DNA from: Acidimicrobiia bacterium
GTDB lineage: Bacteria > Actinomycetota > Acidimicrobiia > Acidimicrobiales > Poriferisodalaceae
Reading direction: 5' to 3'
Assembly: GCA_022820505.1 (NCBI GenBank)
Contig: JAJEFK010000021.1
Coordinates: 186,001-250,000 of the forward strand
Length of the DNA: 64,000 nt
Shown here: in pieces, positions 21,272-32,700 of the stretch
How the letters are laid out: every line of letters starts with the position of its first letter
How positions within the stretch are numbered: the first letter of the stretch is position 1
Notes under the pieces: generated by a model
Seen by the model: only the letters and a program-made list of their open reading frames with translations
What the model was told of the DNA's origin: nothing
Database searches by the model: none
Position numbers and translations under genes: made by a program

Positions 21272-21491
21272 GGAAACGAAGCTAGGTGCCTCGCGCCCCT
21301 CAAGGTCACCGCTTCCTGTTACGAGAGGAGGTGCAACTCGCTGCTGGATCGTCGGCGACGAGCGCGGCAGCGCCAAGTCGCTGGGATCGCTCTCAGTGCC
21401 AGGTCATGTCTTGCTGCCATGCCTCACGAGTGCCACAACCAACTTCCAACAAACTCAGGCTTGACAGCCCTCGTTCCGCCGGATTATGTTG

Positions 21492-21505
21492 TGGGAGCGC
21501 TCCCA
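21492..21505. promoter_or_regulatory. LacI-family operator (TGGGAGCGCTCCCA)
   Basis: Perfect 14-bp palindrome 10 bp upstream of the LacI-family ATG at 21515; identical copy at 22600..22613. Confidence 0.85.
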
Positions 21506-21514
21506 AGGAATCCT

Positions 21515-22558
21515 ATGGCAGCACGTCTCAATCTGGAAGAAATCGGCCGCCGAGCTGGTGTTTCGCGCTCGACGGTCTCGCGCGTGGTCAACGGCGAGCC
21601 CAATGTCAGCGCCAAGACCAAGCGCAAGGTGGAGGCAGTCATCGCGGCAACCGGCTTCCGGCCTCACGCCGCCGCTCGCTCGCTGGCCTCGCGCCAGACC
21701 GGGGTCATCGGCCTGATCATCCCGAGCGAGGCGGGAACGCTCTTCAACGATCCGTACTTCGGGCGCCTGATCCTCGGCGCCAGCGACGCCATGAACGGCC
21801 TGGACCTGACGCTCGCGCTGTTCGTCTTCGGCGAGGAGATCGACGAGAGCGCCATCATCTCCCGGGTCGTCAATCCCGGCCTCGTCGACGGCGTCATCGT
21901 CACCGCGACACGCATGGCCGACCCGTTGATCGACCACCTGCGCGACGCCCACATGCCGTTCGTCGTGATCGGCAGGCCCGACAGTCCCCATGCGGTCTAC
22001 TCCGTCGACGCTGACAACCGCGGCGGTGCCCGATCCGCTGCGCTGCACTTCGCCCAGCTCGGGCGCCAGCGCCCAGCCCTCATCGCACCGCCTTCCAACA
22101 CCAGTGCGGGCGTCGACCGCCGCAGCGGCTTCCTTGACGGGCTCGCCGAAGCGGGTCTGTCCATCGACGGCCGTGTCCGCGAAGGCGACTGGACCGAGGG
22201 CGCCGGTCGCAGCGCCATGGCCGAACTGCTCGCGAGCAGTCCCGATGCAGTCTTCGTGGGCTCGGATCGCATGGCCGTCGGCGCTCTGCAGGCGATCCGC
22301 GAGGCGAATCTGCAGTGCCCTCAAGATGTTGCCGTCGTGTCCTTCGACGGCATCATTCCCGCCGACATGGTGGTGCCCCGGTTGACTTCGGTGGCCCAAC
22401 CGGTGCGGGAGGTGGGGGAGCGGGCTGTCTCGCTGCTGAAGGCAGTCCTGGACGGTGATGTCACGAAGGCGGAATCGGTGGTGTTCCCCACCGAGCTCGT
22501 GATCCGCGAAACCTGCGGCGCCGCGCTCGCTGCCACCGAGACGGGCACGGCGTCCTGA
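21515..22558 (+). CDS. LacI family transcriptional regulator
   Basis: MAARLNLEEIGRRAGVSRSTVSRVVNGEPNVSAKTKRKVEAVIAATGFRPHAAARSLASRQTGVIGLIIP. Confidence 0.95.
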   Translation: MAARLNLEEIGRRAGVSRSTVSRVVNGEPNVSAKTKRKVEAVIAATGFRPHAAARSLASRQTGVIGLIIPSEAGTLFNDPYFGRLILGASDAMNGLDLTLALFVFGEEIDESAIISRVVNPGLVDGVIVTATRMADPLIDHLRDAHMPFVVIGRPDSPHAVYSVDADNRGGARSAALHFAQLGRQRPALIAPPSNTSAGVDRRSGFLDGLAEAGLSIDGRVREGDWTEGAGRSAMAELLASSPDAVFVGSDRMAVGALQAIREANLQCPQDVAVVSFDGIIPADMVVPRLTSVAQPVREVGERAVSLLKAVLDGDVTKAESVVFPTELVIRETCGAALAATETGTAS

Positions 22559-22599: not shown

Positions 22600-22613
22600 T
22601 GGGAGCGCTCCCA
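22600..22613. promoter_or_regulatory. LacI-family operator (TGGGAGCGCTCCCA), second copy
   Basis: Identical 14-bp palindrome in the intergenic region upstream of the ABC substrate-binding gene (22725). Confidence 0.85.
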
Positions 22614-22724
22614 CAACCGAACGCTGTACACGTTCGGCCTCACAACGCGACGCACTCGCCCATCTGATCCGTCATCACATACCCGGTCACACCCATCGTG
22701 ACCACAACCAGGAGGGATAACTCC

Positions 22725-24110
22725 ATGAAGAAATCACTGACCTGGCGGCTCGCTGCCGTCCTGCTTGCATTCGGCCTCATAGGGGCCGCCTGCGGCAGCG
22801 ACGACAGCAGTTCGCCGGCGACCACCGCGGCTCCCGCTGCGACGGATGCCCCGGCGCCAGACGAGCCCGAGCCCGAACCAGAGATGGCCGAGGACGTGAC
22901 GCTACGCGTGCTCGTCCATCAGAACCCGCCGATGGTGGAGTTCATGGAGGCGTTCAACGAGTCGTTCGAGGCATCGCACCCGCACATCACGATCGATCTG
23001 TCGGTCGTGGAAGCGGGCGACCTCTCCATTGCGACCCAGACCCGCCTCTCCGCCAATGACATCGACGTGGTCGGCATCTTCGGATTCTCGAATGCAGCGC
23101 AGTCGTACATGTCCGGCGCCGTACCGCCGAACTGGCAGACGCTGATCGAGGCCGGCCTGCTCATGGATCTCACGGGGCAGCCGTTCGTCGACAACTACGA
23201 CGAGGCGACTATCGCGGACGCCGGCTCGTTCAACGGCAAGGTCTATTCCATCAATCTCGGCCGTGTCTCCTACAGCGGCATGTTCGTCAACAAGGATCTG
23301 CTCGCAGCCAACGGTCTCGAAGTGCCGACCACCTGGGGCGAGCTCGTCACCGCCTGCGAGGTCGTCAAGGCCGCCGGCAACGAGTGCATGACCGTCGGCG
23401 GTGCCGACGGCTGGCCGGTGTTCGTCGGCGCGTACGGCCTGCTCGGCGCGATGTATCCCGATCAGGAGGCGCTCGTCGAGGGCCTGTGGACAGGCGATAT
23501 CACCTGGGACGACGACCAGTCCGTCGAGATGTTCCGCCGGATGCAGATCTACACCTCCGACATGCTCGAACAGGGCGTGACAGGGCTGTCGCACGACGCC
23601 GGCCCGCCGCGGTACGCAGCCGGCGACGTTGCCTTCATGCCCACCGGCGTGTGGCAGGCGCCCGCCCTCGAGAGCGCGGAACCCGACTTCGACTGGACCT
23701 ATGTGCCGTTCCCCGGCAGCGACAACGCCGAGGACAACCAGTACCTGTTCGGCAAGTACGACCAAGGCTGGGCCATTGCGGCAGACACGCCGCACCCCGA
23801 GGCGGCGCTTGCCTACCTCGAGGCGTTCTCTGAGCCCGACAACTACCAGGCGTTCGCCAACGCCGTCGGGTTCATCCCGACCCAGCCGACCGCCGTGCTC
23901 GACACCCACCTGGGCCGCGAGGTCGCGCCGTTCCTGGCGAACTACCGGGTCGGCTTCGAGCAGTACTGGGTTGCGCCGGCAGGCGCGGGCCAGTGGGCGA
24001 ATGGCTCGCAGGCCGCAGCGTGGTTCTCGCCCTTCAACGAGTGGACCGATCACGTTGCACTGGCTGCCCAGGCCCAGGCCGACCTGCAAGCCGGTCTCGA
24101 CGCCAACTAA
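22725..24110 (+). CDS. Extracellular solute-binding lipoprotein, sugar ABC transporter (family 1)
   Basis: MKKSLTWRLAAVLLAFGLIGAACGSDDSSS lipobox; VTLRVLVHQNPPMVEFMEAFNESFEASHPHITIDLSVVEAGD; preceded by GGAGGG. Confidence 0.92.
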   Translation: MKKSLTWRLAAVLLAFGLIGAACGSDDSSSPATTAAPAATDAPAPDEPEPEPEMAEDVTLRVLVHQNPPMVEFMEAFNESFEASHPHITIDLSVVEAGDLSIATQTRLSANDIDVVGIFGFSNAAQSYMSGAVPPNWQTLIEAGLLMDLTGQPFVDNYDEATIADAGSFNGKVYSINLGRVSYSGMFVNKDLLAANGLEVPTTWGELVTACEVVKAAGNECMTVGGADGWPVFVGAYGLLGAMYPDQEALVEGLWTGDITWDDDQSVEMFRRMQIYTSDMLEQGVTGLSHDAGPPRYAAGDVAFMPTGVWQAPALESAEPDFDWTYVPFPGSDNAEDNQYLFGKYDQGWAIAADTPHPEAALAYLEAFSEPDNYQAFANAVGFIPTQPTAVLDTHLGREVAPFLANYRVGFEQYWVAPAGAGQWANGSQAAAWFSPFNEWTDHVALAAQAQADLQAGLDAN

Positions 24111-24207: not shown

Positions 24208-25149
24208 ATGAAGATCGTCACACGCGACTACCTGTTCGCCCGCGGATGGAGGAGCGCGGCGCCGATATTGCTGCTGCTGCCCGGATTCGGGCTGTACCTG
24301 CTGATAGCCGTCGGGCCGTCTCTGGCGACGGCGGTGTACTCGTTCACCGATGCCACCGGCATCCGCGGCATCGCCATCAACTGGCTGGGGTTCGAGAACT
24401 ACGACGAGTTCCTCTTCCGTGGTGCCGCGTCGCGCGACAACATCGCCGCGCTGTGGCGGACGCTGGTTTTCTCGTTCTTCGTCACCACCATCCAGTTCGG
24501 ACTGGGGTTGGTGCTGGCCGTGCTGCTCAACAGCCGGCTGCGCGGCAGGACGATCTTCCGCACGATCTTCTTCATGCCGGTCATCCTGGGCGTGGCCATC
24601 CAGGGCCTCATCTGGAAGCTGTTCCTGCTGCCAGGCGGGGGACCGGTGGCCGAGATCTTCTCTTGGATCGGCTGGAGCTCGGAGTTCTTGGGCGGCCAGC
24701 CCCGCCAGGCATTCGCGTGGGTCATCGTGGTGCAGATCTGGGCCAACGTCGGCATCACGATGGTCATCTTCCTGGCCGGCATGCAGACCATCCCCGAGAG
24801 CCTGTACGAGGCGGCCCGCATCGACGGGGCGAACGGCTGGCAGCTGTTCCGCAACGTGACCTGGCCGCTGCTCACCCCCGCGGTCAACACCAACTTCCTG
24901 CTGAACATCGTCGGCTCCCTGCAGGCGTGGCAGCTGTTCCTGGTGCTCATCGGGTACCGGCCCGGTACCCAGGTGCTCGGCTACCTCGTCTTCGCAGAGG
25001 GCTTCGGGCAGACGTCGGGCTCGGTGAGCAGTGCCTTCCGCCAGGGCTACGCAGCGGCGGCGTCGATCGCGCTGTTCATGTTGGTGCTGGTCATCGCCTT
25101 GGCCGCCAACGCGTTCGTCAGCCATCGCGAGAAGAAGTACCTGTCATGA
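24208..25149 (+). CDS. Sugar ABC transporter permease
   Basis: MQTIPESLYEAARIDGANGWQLFRNVTWPLLTP (EAA motif) plus transmembrane segments. Confidence 0.95.
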   Translation: MKIVTRDYLFARGWRSAAPILLLLPGFGLYLLIAVGPSLATAVYSFTDATGIRGIAINWLGFENYDEFLFRGAASRDNIAALWRTLVFSFFVTTIQFGLGLVLAVLLNSRLRGRTIFRTIFFMPVILGVAIQGLIWKLFLLPGGGPVAEIFSWIGWSSEFLGGQPRQAFAWVIVVQIWANVGITMVIFLAGMQTIPESLYEAARIDGANGWQLFRNVTWPLLTPAVNTNFLLNIVGSLQAWQLFLVLIGYRPGTQVLGYLVFAEGFGQTSGSVSSAFRQGYAAAASIALFMLVLVIALAANAFVSHREKKYLS

Positions 25150-26045
25150 CCGTGCTGAACCCCACCCCGGATGCCGCCGGCGCCAGCGTGGAACCGCCGT
25201 CCGACGAGCCGCAGATGGATCGCAGCGGTCGCACCGCCGCACGCAGACGCAAGCTGTTCTCCTACGCCATCCTGCTGGCGTTCACAGCGCTCTATGTCGG
25301 GCCGATGCTCATGCTGGTGCTCACGGCGTTCAAGTCCCTCCCGGAGTTCTTCAAGAACCCGACGGGATGGCCGGAGTCGTTCGGGTTCGGCAACTTCGTC
25401 GAGGCATGGGAGAAGGCCAACATCGCCCGCTACCTCGTGAACTCGGTGCTCTACACCGCGGTCGCGACGGCGATCTGCGTCTTCACCTCGGTGCTGGTGG
25501 CCTTCCCCATCGCCCGCGGCTACCTCAAGGGCGCCAAGTACATCTTGCTGCTGTACGTCGTGGCGCTGTTCCTGCCGCCTGCGCTGATCCCGCAGTTCCA
25601 GCTCATCTTGAACCTCGGGCTCTTCAATACCCGGACTGGGTTCATCCTGCTGTTCCTCGTCAACCCGATCGGCCTCATCATCCTGGTCAACTACATCAAG
25701 TCGATCCCGCGAGAACTGGACGAGTCGGCGGCGGTGGACGGCTGCGGCTACTACCGATTCGTCTTCAAGATCGTCATGCCCCTGATCCGGCCGGCCATCG
25801 CCACGGTCACCGTGCTGCATGCAATCGGCATCTGGAACGAGCTGGTGCTGCCCACCATCTACCTGACCAGCGAGAACCTCTACCCCGTGACACGGGGACT
25901 CATCGTGTTCGAAGGCCTCTACGGCAGCAATTGGCCCGCGTTGGCCGCTGCCGTCCTCATCCTGATGACGCCGATGCTGGTGCTGTTCCTGTTCCTGCAG
26001 CGCTACATCATCTCGGGACTCACCGCAGGCGCGGTCAAGGGCTGA
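25146..26045 (+). CDS. Carbohydrate ABC transporter permease (MalG-like)
   Basis: KSIPRELDESAAVDGCGYYRFVFKIVMPLIRPAIATV (EAA motif), overlaps the previous gene by 4 nt. Confidence 0.95.
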   Translation: MTVLNPTPDAAGASVEPPSDEPQMDRSGRTAARRRKLFSYAILLAFTALYVGPMLMLVLTAFKSLPEFFKNPTGWPESFGFGNFVEAWEKANIARYLVNSVLYTAVATAICVFTSVLVAFPIARGYLKGAKYILLLYVVALFLPPALIPQFQLILNLGLFNTRTGFILLFLVNPIGLIILVNYIKSIPRELDESAAVDGCGYYRFVFKIVMPLIRPAIATVTVLHAIGIWNELVLPTIYLTSENLYPVTRGLIVFEGLYGSNWPALAAAVLILMTPMLVLFLFLQRYIISGLTAGAVKG

Positions 26046-27040
26046 TGTCGGAGCGCAGGGCACGATTGGGCGCCGCCGGCCGCTGGATCGCGGCGGCACT
26101 GGCCGTAGCAGTCGCCGCAACCGCCTGCGCCGGCTCGACGACGGCCGAACCGGCGGTAACGCCGCAGACCGCCGCACCCGACACCGCGGCGGCGACCACG
26201 ACCACCACCACGGCCGCGCCCACAACCACCACCGAGGCGTTCACCCCGGCCATCGCCGCCCCGCCCCCGATCCCGATCCGCGACGAGCCGGGATGGGAGT
26301 TGGTGTGGAACGACGAGTTCGACGGCGACGAGATCGATCTGACCAGCTGGACCTACGACATCGGCGGCTGGGGCTGGGGCAACGGCGAGGCGCAGTACTA
26401 CACCTCTCGGCCCCGCAACGCCCGCCTCGCCAACGGCCTGCTGGTGATCGAAGCGCACCAGGAAAAGTACGAGAGCTCCTACTACACATCCGCCCGGATG
26501 CTCACCCAGGGACTGCGCGAGTTCCAATACGGGCGCTTCGAAGCCCGGATCAAGGTGCCGGCCGGCGCCGGGCTGTGGCCGGCGTTCTGGATGCTCGGGT
26601 CCGACTTCATCCACCGGGCAGAAGACGAGGCCAACCGGTGGCCGTTCGTCGGCGAGATCGACATCATGGAGTACGTCGGCCGCGAGCCCGATCTGATCCT
26701 GGGCACCGTGCACGGACCCGGGTATGCGGGGGCGCTCGGCCTCTCCAAGTGGTTCCGCCAGGAACACCAGATTGCCGATGAGTTCCACACCTATGCCATC
26801 GAATGGGACCACGAGGGCATCCGCTGGTTCTACGACGAGCAGATGTACTACGACCTGCCCCGCACCGGTGTGGGCAACCGGGATTGGGTCTTCGACGGCG
26901 AGTTCTTCCTGATCCTCAACCTGGCCGTCGGCGGGCTGTTCCCCGGCCCCATCGCGCTCGACCTGGAGTTCCCGGTGCAGATGTACGTGGACTACGTGCG
27001 CGTGTACCAGCGGACCGACGATGCCGCAGCGGGGGCGTAG
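26045..27040 (+). CDS. Glycoside hydrolase family 16 lipoprotein (endo-beta-1,3-glucanase/laminarinase-like)
   Basis: ATACAGST lipobox, Thr-rich linker, WNDEFDGDEIDLTSWTYDIGGWGWGNGEAQYYT, catalytic GEIDIMEYVG (ExDxxE), GTVHGPGYAG, FHTYAIEWDHEGIRWFYD. Confidence 0.93.
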   Translation: MSERRARLGAAGRWIAAALAVAVAATACAGSTTAEPAVTPQTAAPDTAAATTTTTTAAPTTTTEAFTPAIAAPPPIPIRDEPGWELVWNDEFDGDEIDLTSWTYDIGGWGWGNGEAQYYTSRPRNARLANGLLVIEAHQEKYESSYYTSARMLTQGLREFQYGRFEARIKVPAGAGLWPAFWMLGSDFIHRAEDEANRWPFVGEIDIMEYVGREPDLILGTVHGPGYAGALGLSKWFRQEHQIADEFHTYAIEWDHEGIRWFYDEQMYYDLPRTGVGNRDWVFDGEFFLILNLAVGGLFPGPIALDLEFPVQMYVDYVRVYQRTDDAAAGA

Positions 27041-27044
27041 CGCC

Positions 27045-30000
27045 ATGGGGTCCCCACGCGCAGTCGAATCCGTCATGGCCGAGCCCTTCGGAGAAATCCG
27101 CATCGAAGACGGGCGTGAGTGGTACCAGATCACCGACTACGACCACGCAGATCCGTTTCTCGTCAATGTGGTCACGCTCGGCGACCTGTGGCTGTTCGTA
27201 TCGTCGAGCGGCGCGCTGACAGCAGGTCGCTACAGCGCCGACCTGGCGCTGTTCCCCTACGAGACCGATGATCGGCTGCACCGCAGCGGGGGCCGCACGG
27301 GGCCCCTCACCTTGGTCCGGGTGGGTGATGGTGAGCGCGCCTGGGAGCCCTTCGCCACTCACGCGCCGATCGGCTCGGTACAGCGCACCATCGCGAAGAC
27401 GGCCGAAGGCGACCGGCTCCGATTCGCCGAGCGGCACGACGATCTGGGGCTCACCTTCAGCTACACGTGGTCTGCGACGCCGGAGTTCGGCTTCGTACGC
27501 AGCTGCGAGCTGAGCCGTGCGCCCGATCGTGGCGCTCTCGACGTGGAAGTGCTCGACGGGTTGGTCGACGTGCTTCCCTCCGGTGTCGAGCTGGCGATCC
27601 AGCAGCAGTCGAGCACGCTGGTGGATGCCTACCGCCGCAGCGAGTACGACTACGAGGCCGAACTCGCTCTGTTCACGCTCGAGGCCCTGATCAGCGATCG
27701 GCCCGATCCGGCTGAGTCGCTGCACGCCGCAGTGGTGTGGTCACGCGGACTCGACAACGCCCGAGTCGTGCTGTCGGATCGCCAGGTGAGGCTGTTCCGC
27801 TCAGGCCGCACGCTCGCCGCTGAGCCCCTGGTGACCGGCCGCAAGGGTTCGTTCCTGCTCGCTGCCGCCGCGCGGCTCGAGCCCGGCACACCCCTCGAAT
27901 GGACCACCGTCGCCGATACGTCCCGATCCCATGCCGATGTTGCAAGGCTCCGTCGCTGGCTGCACGAGACTCCCGATCCGCGACCCGAGCTCGATGCCTC
28001 GGTGGACCGGATGCGACACGAACTCGTCCGGCTGGTGGCCTCCGCTGACGGGCTGCAGTGCACCGCGGATCGCCGCGTCGACATCAACCACTACGCCAAT
28101 GTTCTCTACAACTGCATGCGCGGGGGCGTGCCGCTCGACGACTACCGCGTCGAGGTTGCCGATGTCGAGCGGTTCGTTGCCGCGCGGAGCCGCGAGGCGG
28201 CACAGCGGTTCGGCTCCGCGACTGCTGGGCTCGATCCGACGGCCGGGCTGGGCGAGCTGCATCGGCTCGTCATCGACGATACCGATCTGTTCCGGCTGGT
28301 CGACGAGTACCTGCCGCTGGCATTCAGCCGCCGTCACGGCGACCCGAGCAGGCCATGGAACGAATTCCGCATCAGTGCCGGCGGCGAGGCGTCGAGCTTC
28401 GCCTATGAGGGCAATTGGCGAGACATCTTCCAGAACTGGGAGGCCTTGGTCACCAGCTTCCCCATGCTCGCCCACGCTGTCGTCGCCAAGTTCTTGAACG
28501 CGTCCACCCGCGACGGCCACAACCCGTACCGGATCACCAGCGAAGGCGTCGACTGGGAGACACCCGATGAGGGCTCCTGGTCGAATTTCGGCTACTGGGG
28601 CGATCACCAGATCGTCTACCTGCACCGTCTGCTGGATCTCGCGCGCCGCCATGTCCCCGGTCTGCTCGAATCGCTGCTGGGGTGGGTGGGCTACTCGTCG
28701 GCCGATGTGCCGTACCGCATGCTCCCGTACCGGGACATGGTCGCGGACCCCAAGCGGACGCTGCGCTTCGATGCACATGCCCAAGCGCAGATCGACGAAC
28801 GGGTGCGACACATCGGCGCCGACGGCAAGCTCGTGCTCGACGCCGCGGGACGCGTGCATCACGTGTCGCTCGCCGAGAAGCTGCTGCTGCCGGCATTGGC
28901 CAAGGTCTCCAGCCTGGTGCCCGGCGGCGGCATCTGGCTGAACGCGCAGCGTCCCGAGTGGAACGACGCCAACAACGCGCTCGCAGGCATCGGATTGTCG
29001 GTCGTCACCGTCGTTCACCTGCGCGACTACCTGACGTTCATCGACAGCCTGTTCTCCGACTCCGACGCCGAGACTGTTCCCCTGAGTCCGTCGGTGGCCA
29101 TATGGCTCACCGAGGTGCTGCGGATCTGCGAGGAGCACGCCGACCTCGCCGACCCCGAACGCCTCGACGACACCAGTCGCCGGGCACTGGCGGATCGGCT
29201 CGGCACGGCTTTCGAGGAATTCCGCGCTCGCATCTACGATCATCTACCCGAGCCGCCGCTGCCCACCCCACTGGCTCGCCTGCGCCAACTGGTGTCCGCA
29301 GTGCAGCCTCACCTCGACGTGATCACGGAGGCTGCCCGCCGACCCGACGACCTCGTGGATGCGTACGGTCTGGTGACCTTCGAGGCCGGCGTCGCACGTG
29401 TGAAGTCGCTGCCGCTCATGCTCGAAGGGCAGGTCGCCGTGCTGGGTTCCGACACGACAAGCCCTGCGGCGGCTGCCGGCATGCTCGACTCGCTTTTTGC
29501 CAGCGACCTGTATCAGCCCGAGAGGCGGTCCTTCCTGCTCCATCCCGACGACGCGCTGCCAAGTTTCATGGAGCGCAACCGTGTGCCTGCCGAGCGGATC
29601 AACGAGGAGCTGCGGGGCGTTCTCAATGGCCGCTCGTCGCTGCTGGAGCAAGACGCCGAGGGCAGCATCCGGTTCGCAAGCTGGCTGACCAGCAGCCGCG
29701 AGCTCGCCAGCGCGCTCGACGAGCTGCTGTCGGCGTCGCGTATCAGCCCCATGGAGCATGCCGAGATCGCCGCCGCATATGAAGACGTGTTCGGGCACCA
29801 GGCATTCATCGGACGCGCGCAGACGATGTATCGCTATGAGGGGCTCGGCTCGATCTACTGGCACATGGTGATGAAGCTGATGGTGGCCACCCAGCGCCAG
29901 ATCACCGCTGCCGTCGACCGCGGCACCGACGCCGACCTCGTGAACCGGCTCATCGAGCACTACCGCCGGATACGGGCCGGGCTCGGCTTTCTGAAGTCGG

Positions 30001-30491
30001 CCGCTGAGCAGGGCGCATTCCCGCTCGAGCCGTACTCGCACACGCCTGCCGATGCGGGCGCTCAGCAGCCGGGGATGACCGGCGCCGCGAAGGACGGGAT
30101 CCTGATCCGCTGGGGCGAACTGGGCGTGCAGGTCCGCGATGGACGCGTGCGCTTCCGGCCGGTGCTGCTCGGCGCCGACGAGTTCCTGCAAGCTCCGCAG
30201 CCCTGGTCACCGCTTGGCTCAGATGGCCAGCTCGACGCAGGCACGTTGGGATTCACCTATTGCGGCGTGCCGGTGATCTACCGGTTGGGCGGAGGCCCCC
30301 CTTCGCTGACGGTGACCCTGCGTGAGGGGGCCTCGACGGTGATCGGCGACGAGCTCGATGCTGAGGTGAGCGCGTTGCTGTTCGGCCGTTCAGGAGCGAT
30401 CACCAGCATCGAGGCCAGCGTCGAACTCTGGCCGCATCGACACGCGGCGCCGCAAGCCGCCGCCGTCGCATCACCAACCGGCACACCCTGA
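27045..30491 (+). CDS. Large conserved uncharacterised protein in glucan-utilisation locus; candidate cytoplasmic carbohydrate-active enzyme
   Basis: About 1,150 aa without a clear signal peptide; FGYWGDHQIVYLHRLLDLARRHVPG, GGGIWLNAQRPEWNDANNALAGIGLSVVTVVHLRDYLTF suggest an alpha/alpha-barrel-like enzyme. Starts 27045 or 27075. Confidence 0.8.
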   Translation: MGSPRAVESVMAEPFGEIRIEDGREWYQITDYDHADPFLVNVVTLGDLWLFVSSSGALTAGRYSADLALFPYETDDRLHRSGGRTGPLTLVRVGDGERAWEPFATHAPIGSVQRTIAKTAEGDRLRFAERHDDLGLTFSYTWSATPEFGFVRSCELSRAPDRGALDVEVLDGLVDVLPSGVELAIQQQSSTLVDAYRRSEYDYEAELALFTLEALISDRPDPAESLHAAVVWSRGLDNARVVLSDRQVRLFRSGRTLAAEPLVTGRKGSFLLAAAARLEPGTPLEWTTVADTSRSHADVARLRRWLHETPDPRPELDASVDRMRHELVRLVASADGLQCTADRRVDINHYANVLYNCMRGGVPLDDYRVEVADVERFVAARSREAAQRFGSATAGLDPTAGLGELHRLVIDDTDLFRLVDEYLPLAFSRRHGDPSRPWNEFRISAGGEASSFAYEGNWRDIFQNWEALVTSFPMLAHAVVAKFLNASTRDGHNPYRITSEGVDWETPDEGSWSNFGYWGDHQIVYLHRLLDLARRHVPGLLESLLGWVGYSSADVPYRMLPYRDMVADPKRTLRFDAHAQAQIDERVRHIGADGKLVLDAAGRVHHVSLAEKLLLPALAKVSSLVPGGGIWLNAQRPEWNDANNALAGIGLSVVTVVHLRDYLTFIDSLFSDSDAETVPLSPSVAIWLTEVLRICEEHADLADPERLDDTSRRALADRLGTAFEEFRARIYDHLPEPPLPTPLARLRQLVSAVQPHLDVITEAARRPDDLVDAYGLVTFEAGVARVKSLPLMLEGQVAVLGSDTTSPAAAAGMLDSLFASDLYQPERRSFLLHPDDALPSFMERNRVPAERINEELRGVLNGRSSLLEQDAEGSIRFASWLTSSRELASALDELLSASRISPMEHAEIAAAYEDVFGHQAFIGRAQTMYRYEGLGSIYWHMVMKLMVATQRQITAAVDRGTDADLVNRLIEHYRRIRAGLGFLKSAAEQGAFPLEPYSHTPADAGAQQPGMTGAAKDGILIRWGELGVQVRDGRVRFRPVLLGADEFLQAPQPWSPLGSDGQLDAGTLGFTYCGVPVIYRLGGGPPSLTVTLREGASTVIGDELDAEVSALLFGRSGAITSIEASVELWPHRHAAPQAAAVASPTGTP

Positions 30492-30518
30492 GAAACTCCG
30501 AGACGAGGAGCCAGCACC

Positions 30519-31670
<1,152 letters not shown>

Positions 31671-31755
31671 ACCCCGGTCACTGCTCGGAGTGCTGAGCCG
31701 CGCAGCGGAGCCGGACAGCGCCGGCTGCCGTCGTACAATTCGCGTCGTGGGGATT

Positions 31756-32700
31756 GGGGAGGTGATGCTCCCGCCGCTGTACGAACGGCCGCCTCGACCG
31801 CTGGCCATGGCGCGCTGGACGATCACCAAGTTCCTGTGGTGGCAGGGTGGCCTGTGGATCGCCGTCGGCATCGTGGCGTGGAACTGGCTCACGCCGTCGC
31901 TCGAGAGCTTCGCGACCCCGGCGGCGTGGGCAGTCGCAGCGGTGTATCTGCGCAACGTGGCGCTCCTGATTGCCGTGGCCGGGGGCTTGCACTGGTGGCT
32001 GTTCATCCGGCGCCGCCAGGGCACCCGGCACAAGTACGACGAGCGCTGGCTGTCGGCTGGGCGCAGGCCGTTCCTGTTCAGAAACCAGACCCGTGACAAC
32101 GTGTTCTGGTCGCTCGCCAGCGCCTGCTCCATCGCAGCGCTGTACGAGGCGCTGATGCTGTGGCTGTATGCCAACGACCTCATCTGGACCGTTCCGGCAA
32201 CCGGCAGCCTCGCCGGCTTCGGCTACACAGCGGCGCTGACGCTGCTGATCTTCCCGCTGGGCTCGGTGCACTTCTACGCCAACCACCGGCTGCTCCACAC
32301 CAAGCACCTGTACCGCTGGGCTCACTCGCTGCACCATCGCAACGTCAACATCGGCCCGTGGTCGGGCGTCTCGATGCATCCGCTTGAGCACGTGCTGTAG
32401 CTCTCGGTGCCGCTGGTCTTCCTGGTGATCCCGGCGAACCCGTACTTGATCACTCTGACGACCACGTATTTCCTGCTGTCACCGGCTGCGTCGCATTCGG
32501 GTTTCGACCGCTTCGTGGTAGCTGGCGGTCGCACCGTGGCCGGCGGCGACCGCTTCCACACGCTCCACCACCGCTATTTCGACTGCAACTACGGAACGGC
32601 GATCGTGCCGCTCGACAAGTGGTTCGGCACGTTCCACGACGGCAGCCACGAAGCCAACGATCGCATCGTCGAACGCCGCCGTCGCCTGGCAGCCCGCTAG
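31756..32700 (+). pseudogene. Sterol desaturase / fatty acid hydroxylase family protein interrupted by one in-frame TAG (32398-32400)
   Basis: Histidine motifs HFYANHRLLHTKHLYRWAHSLHHRNVN... then GVSMHPLEHVL-TAG-LSVPLVFLVIPANPY...DRFHTLHHRYFDCNYGTAIVPLDKWFGTFHDG in the same frame. Start is uncertain (ORF 31690). Confidence 0.82.

Follow-up and report, generated by a model that had tools for sequence, protein, structure and literature searches.

The gene at 27045–30491 (+) of the window, by which we mean the whole 64,000-nucleotide stretch of Acidimicrobiia DNA analyzed here, very probably encodes a GH149 β-1,3-glucan (oligosaccharide) phosphorylase, predicted from sequence comparison and a structural model to be the intracellular catabolic enzyme of a β-1,3-glucan utilization operon. 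A first-pass annotation had placed the product in an unknown family, and this does not hold. The NCBIfam model NF058639 ("1,3-beta-D-glucan phosphorylase, GH149 family") matches residues 22–1126 on model positions 13–1133 of 1134 with 1211 bits against a curated cut-off of 1150 (E = 0), a score only ~5% above this equivalog cut-off. A sequence search of the PDB put the GH149 enzyme Pro_7066 (6hq6/6hq8) on top with E = 7.5e-255 over the same residues, at an identity of ~37–38%. No Pfam-A model, including that of GH94, matched the protein at E ≤ 1, which is probably the reason why it looked like an orphan. That appearance is now settled as a family invisible to Pfam, yet represented in CAZy (GH149) and NCBIfam and by a crystal structure.

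An AlphaFold model of the protein was built from 45 homologues, with a mean pLDDT of 87 and a pTM of 0.89. In a structure search with this model, a check that the first-pass annotation had proposed, the best match was 6hq8, itself a glycan enzyme (E = 2.6e-91, TM 0.93/0.94, 2.6 Å over 1138 columns), followed by GH161 (E ~1e-36) and then by the GH94 laminaribiose phosphorylase (E ~1e-22). On the predicted structure, GH149 ahead of GH161 ahead of GH94 is the ranking that a clan GH-Q protein of family GH149 should give. The domain layout of the predicted model also fits GH149, with an N-terminal β-sandwich, an (α/α)6 domain with insertions and a C-terminal jelly roll. The suggestion of an α/α-toroid enzyme, made from two quoted segments that are both present in the protein, is borne out by the superposition on 6hq8. 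The size and kind of the GH94, GH149 and GH161 phosphorylases had been rightly brought up as well, but the accompanying remark that GH149 signatures are absent was wrong on the evidence of NF058639 and of the active-site residues, and the quoted segment RPEWNDANN itself holds the WND catalytic motif. Membership in GH161 was rejected on a phmmer E of ~1e-5 with a best stretch of 220 residues and on a fold TM of 0.67–0.75 at 14–15% identity, and membership in GH94 on the missing Pfam match to the GH94 model and on GH94 structures ranking below those of GH149 and GH161.

The active-site residues published for Pro_7066 are R470, D471, W651, N652, D653, E951 and H959 (PMC6771811). Mapping through alignments to the 6hq6 chain, whose numbering runs 19 ahead of that of PMC6771811, gave R459, D460, W639, N640, D641, E932 and H940 as the equivalents, and every published residue is present. 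The catalytic loop WND (W639-N640-D641) aligns to W651-N652-D653 with the Asp general acid in place, and the RD motif (R459, D460) is kept together with the Glu and His (E932, H940) of the −1 subsite and phosphate site. All seven residues are invariant in the alignment of the 45 homologues, which excludes one locus with stop codons. Pro_7066 (6HQ6/6HQ8; PMC5827456, PMC6771811) is therefore like the protein in full-length homology, domain layout, fold and active-site residues. Besides the modest identity, the two differ at the surface oligosaccharide-binding site, where the YE motif of Pro_7066 (Y993, E994) is Arg-Arg in our protein while E990 is kept. The YE motif is poorly conserved or variable in distant bacterial GH149 proteins (PMC6771811) and is a feature of Pro_7066 and its close kin, not a family-defining one. 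Given the Arg-Arg, binding of longer glucans may differ from that of Pro_7066.

The reading frame starts with an ATG at 27045, is open for 1148 codons and ends with the stop at 30491. Alternative in-frame ATGs lie at 27021, which overlaps the GH16 stop, and at 27075 (MAEPF...); the start at 27045 is downstream of the GH16 stop (27038–27040) and has a purine-rich stretch immediately 5′ of it. Read on the minus strand, this interval is interrupted by stops. G+C content equals that of the surroundings (0.66–0.67), and a chance open frame can be rejected because full-length homologues occur in same-genus genomes and in dozens of other bacteria. The N-terminus has no hydrophobic stretch and the β-sandwich is predicted from residue 15 on, so that no signal peptide is visible, in agreement with the first-pass annotation, and the enzyme would be expected to stay in the cytoplasm.

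The gene belongs to a locus with the following features:

21461–21490 (+), promoter-like TTGACA-18-TATGTT from a consensus scan (10/12 matches), before the repressor gene and abutting operator copy 1
21492–21505 (+), operator copy 1, the perfect 14-bp palindrome TGGGAGCGCTCCCA, ~10 bases 5′ of the likely LacI start
21515–22558 (+), LacI-family repressor (PF00356, PF13377), likely start MAARLNLEEIG...
22600–22613 (+), operator copy 2, TGGGAGCGCTCCCA, before the binding-protein gene and invariant in two same-genus operons
22698–24110 (+), sugar-binding lipoprotein of a CUT1-type ABC importer (PF13416, PF01547; PDB sugar-binding proteins)
24208–25149 (+), MalF-like ABC permease (PF00528)
25146–26045 (+), MalG-like ABC permease, MTVLNPTP... 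(PF00528)
26045–27040 (+), GH16 laminarinase-like surface lipoprotein (PF00722)
27045–30491 (+), GH149 β-1,3-glucan phosphorylase, 1148 aa (NF058639, 6hq6, fold, active-site residues)
30519–31670 (+), ABC importer ATPase of MalK/UgpC type (NF008653, 480.7 bits against a cut-off of 432; PF00005, PF17912)

The order LacI-SBP-MalF-MalG-GH16-GH149-MalK confirms the earlier placement of the gene between a GH16 lipoprotein and a sugar ABC ATPase in a LacI-controlled operon. From 24208 to 31670 stops and starts overlap or almost touch, and we infer from this that the interval is a single transcription unit. The mechanical open reading frame of the LacI gene begins at 21419, but the likely true start is at 21515, as judged from where operator copy 1 lies and from homologues, whose similarity begins at residue ~30. 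For the binding-protein gene, the true start is possibly the internal MKKS at about codon 10. The translated GH16 protein has a lipobox-like N-terminus (VAATACAG), a Thr-rich linker and the EIDIME catalytic motif, and its best PDB matches are the laminarinases/β-1,3-glucanases 3iln, 3atg and 3azx (E ~1e-65), with lichenases at E ~1e-9. Downstream of the ATPase gene, at 31690–32697 (+), an in-frame TAG at 32398–32400 interrupts a fatty-acid-hydroxylase/sterol-desaturase frame (PF04116), which then runs on open to ~32697; the TAG is either a nonsense mutation or an assembly error.

The two operators are the only perfect copies of TGGGAGCGCTCCCA in the 3.29-Mb genome, in which the reversed control sequence has no copy, and 0.02 matches are expected by chance in the window even with one mismatch allowed. 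The same sequence stands before the LacI or binding-protein gene in eight related operons (L005, L006, L085, L086, L097, L098, L099 and L009), matching operons of other members of the order among them, and letter for letter it equals the operator of CebR in Streptomyces and CelR in Thermobifida (PMC5332605, PMC4898821, PMC4697097). Promoter and terminator consensus scans did little or no better than chance, and about one hit as good as the TTGACA-18-TATGTT element is expected by chance, making it weak on its own. The CebR-CebEFG-MsiK and CelR systems resemble this locus in their LacI repressor, their ABC importer for β-gluco-oligosaccharides and their operator, but they control cellulose/cello-oligosaccharide genes (PMC5332605, PMC4898821, PMC4697097), whereas the enzymes here point to β-1,3-glucan and there are two local sites only. 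Their inducers are cellobiose/cellotriose (PMC5332605, PMC4898821, PMC4697097). Clostridium thermocellum GlyR3 is a precedent for LacI-type control by laminaribiose (PMC5483248), and by analogy this sugar is a plausible inducer for the LacI protein of this operon.

Taken together as a pathway, the surface-anchored GH16 laminarinase would cut laminarin-type β-1,3-glucan outside the cell, and the CUT1 ABC importer would bring the oligosaccharides in. With inorganic phosphate and D641 as the general acid, cytoplasmic GH149 would then release α-glucose-1-phosphate unit by unit from the non-reducing end. A phosphoglucomutase could pass the glucose-1-phosphate on to glycolysis, saving one ATP per bond compared with hydrolysis, and the genome has phosphoglucomutase/phosphomannomutase family genes as candidates for this step. 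The LacI protein would repress its own gene as well as the transport and enzyme genes at the two TGGGAGCGCTCCCA operators until released by a β-gluco-oligosaccharide, perhaps laminaribiose. A search of the genome for GH94 found none, and such a partner enzyme should not be needed since characterized GH149 enzymes cleave down to the disaccharide (PMC6484121). One GH3 gene on another contig is a possible partner for leftover disaccharide.

The Type I GH149 clusters of Proteobacteria likewise combine an ABC importer, GH149 and a LacI (or AraC) regulator (PMC5827456), but their importer is of the COG0747/0601/1173/0444/4608 type and they are without a secreted laminarinase, whereas the operon described here has a CUT1-type importer and a built-in GH16 laminarinase-like lipoprotein. 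The 2018 paper that founded GH149 describes both these Type I clusters, in which the ABC importer comes without a secreted glucanase, and Type II/PUL clusters (PMC5827456). GH161 PapP and its ABC/GH clusters (PMC6484121) have the same chemistry, that of clan GH-Q, and their operons are organized along similar lines, with ABC and GH genes together, but the sequence match to our protein is marginal and the fold match much weaker, and GH161 cannot cleave the disaccharide (PMC6484121).

With the family established, the alternatives mainly concern substrate and direction. A phosphorylase of GH149 fold could have mixed-linkage β-1,3/1,4-glucan oligosaccharides or cello-oligosaccharides as its real substrate in place of linear β-1,3-glucan: the operators are those of a regulator answering to cellobiose/cellotriose, GH16 also includes β-1,3-1,4-glucanases, to which the neighbour has weak matches, and Blautia producta handles mixed-linkage glucan with GH16, GH94 and an ABC importer (PMC10318527). 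We nevertheless consider this quite improbable, as the protein scores above the cut-off of a β-1,3-specific equivalog, its GH16 neighbour is far nearer to laminarinases than to lichenases, and characterized GH149 enzymes work on β-1,3 bonds (PMC5827456). An enzyme that works mainly in the synthetic direction, making storage or wall β-1,3-glucan out of glucose-1-phosphate, is very improbable. GH149 enzymes can run the reaction both ways in vitro (PMC5827456), but the gene shares its conserved unit with importer genes, a surface glucanase and a LacI repressor, an arrangement that fits degradation. The new CAZyme class raised in the first-pass annotation, unrelated to GH94, GH149 and GH161, could appeal to the Pfam-A result, but it is refuted by the full-length GH149 matches in NCBIfam, PDB sequence and fold, and its chance is negligible.

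A GH149 phosphorylase acting on β-1,3-glucan is thus the reading we retain, and the conserved gene order counts in its favour. Two same-genus genomes keep the protein full length at 82–85% identity within an identical operon order (82–96% identity per gene), and dozens of other bacteria carry homologues at 38–58% identity. The LacI-SBP-MalF-MalG-GH16-GH149 order is also kept in other families of the order. In two operons (L097, L099) the ATPase gene is next to GH149, and in two more (L006, L102) an enolase-superfamily gene and a short-chain dehydrogenase precede GH16. A GH3-like β-glucosidase gene lies between GH16 and GH149 at L100:10780–12591, where the family was tested, and L103:6191–8125 looks alike; it is likely an operon helper. 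In two genomes of the order, giant proteins (~1450–1490 aa) with GH16, CBM11 and Calx-beta domains adjoin GH149 (L098:10726–15192, L096:10749–15083).

GH149 is patchy, being found in 3/61 near relatives and in 12/298 genomes of the order. In a quick tree with SH-aLRT support and no bootstrap, the gene groups with support 100 in a clade of 10 rows, all of them from this order or from two Acidimicrobiia MAGs. At 57% identity, these MAGs are also the closest named records from outside the genus, which makes Acidimicrobiia the probable source. This actinobacterial branch is well supported in its own right, with at most ~58% identity outside the genus. It might represent a subclade without the Pro_7066 surface-site motif, under CebR-type operator control and with a shifted specificity (e.g., for mixed-linkage or short laminari-oligosaccharides), though we regard this as unlikely.

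The GH149 proteins listed in the 2018 family paper all came from Proteobacteria, Bacteroidetes or Euglenophyceae (PMC5827456), and in the parts of the literature our search reached, no passage linked GH149 with Acidimicrobiia. The predicted laminarin users now also include Acidimicrobiia-type actinobacteria, which have CUT1, GH16 and GH149 together in a complete operon, and the CebR/CelR box is linked to a predicted β-1,3-glucan operon. What is new here is minor: an actinobacterial operon that joins GH149 to a CUT1 importer and GH16, and a box of CebR type at a β-1,3-glucan locus. The general picture is unchanged: a described, structurally solved family in a slightly different layout, and no new class. 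A further GH149 gene (L033:9001–12360, 42% identity), whose record bears the title Candidatus Brockarchaeota archaeon, groups with a Demequina gene in the tree and is either an archaeal GH149 or part of a mis-binned contig.
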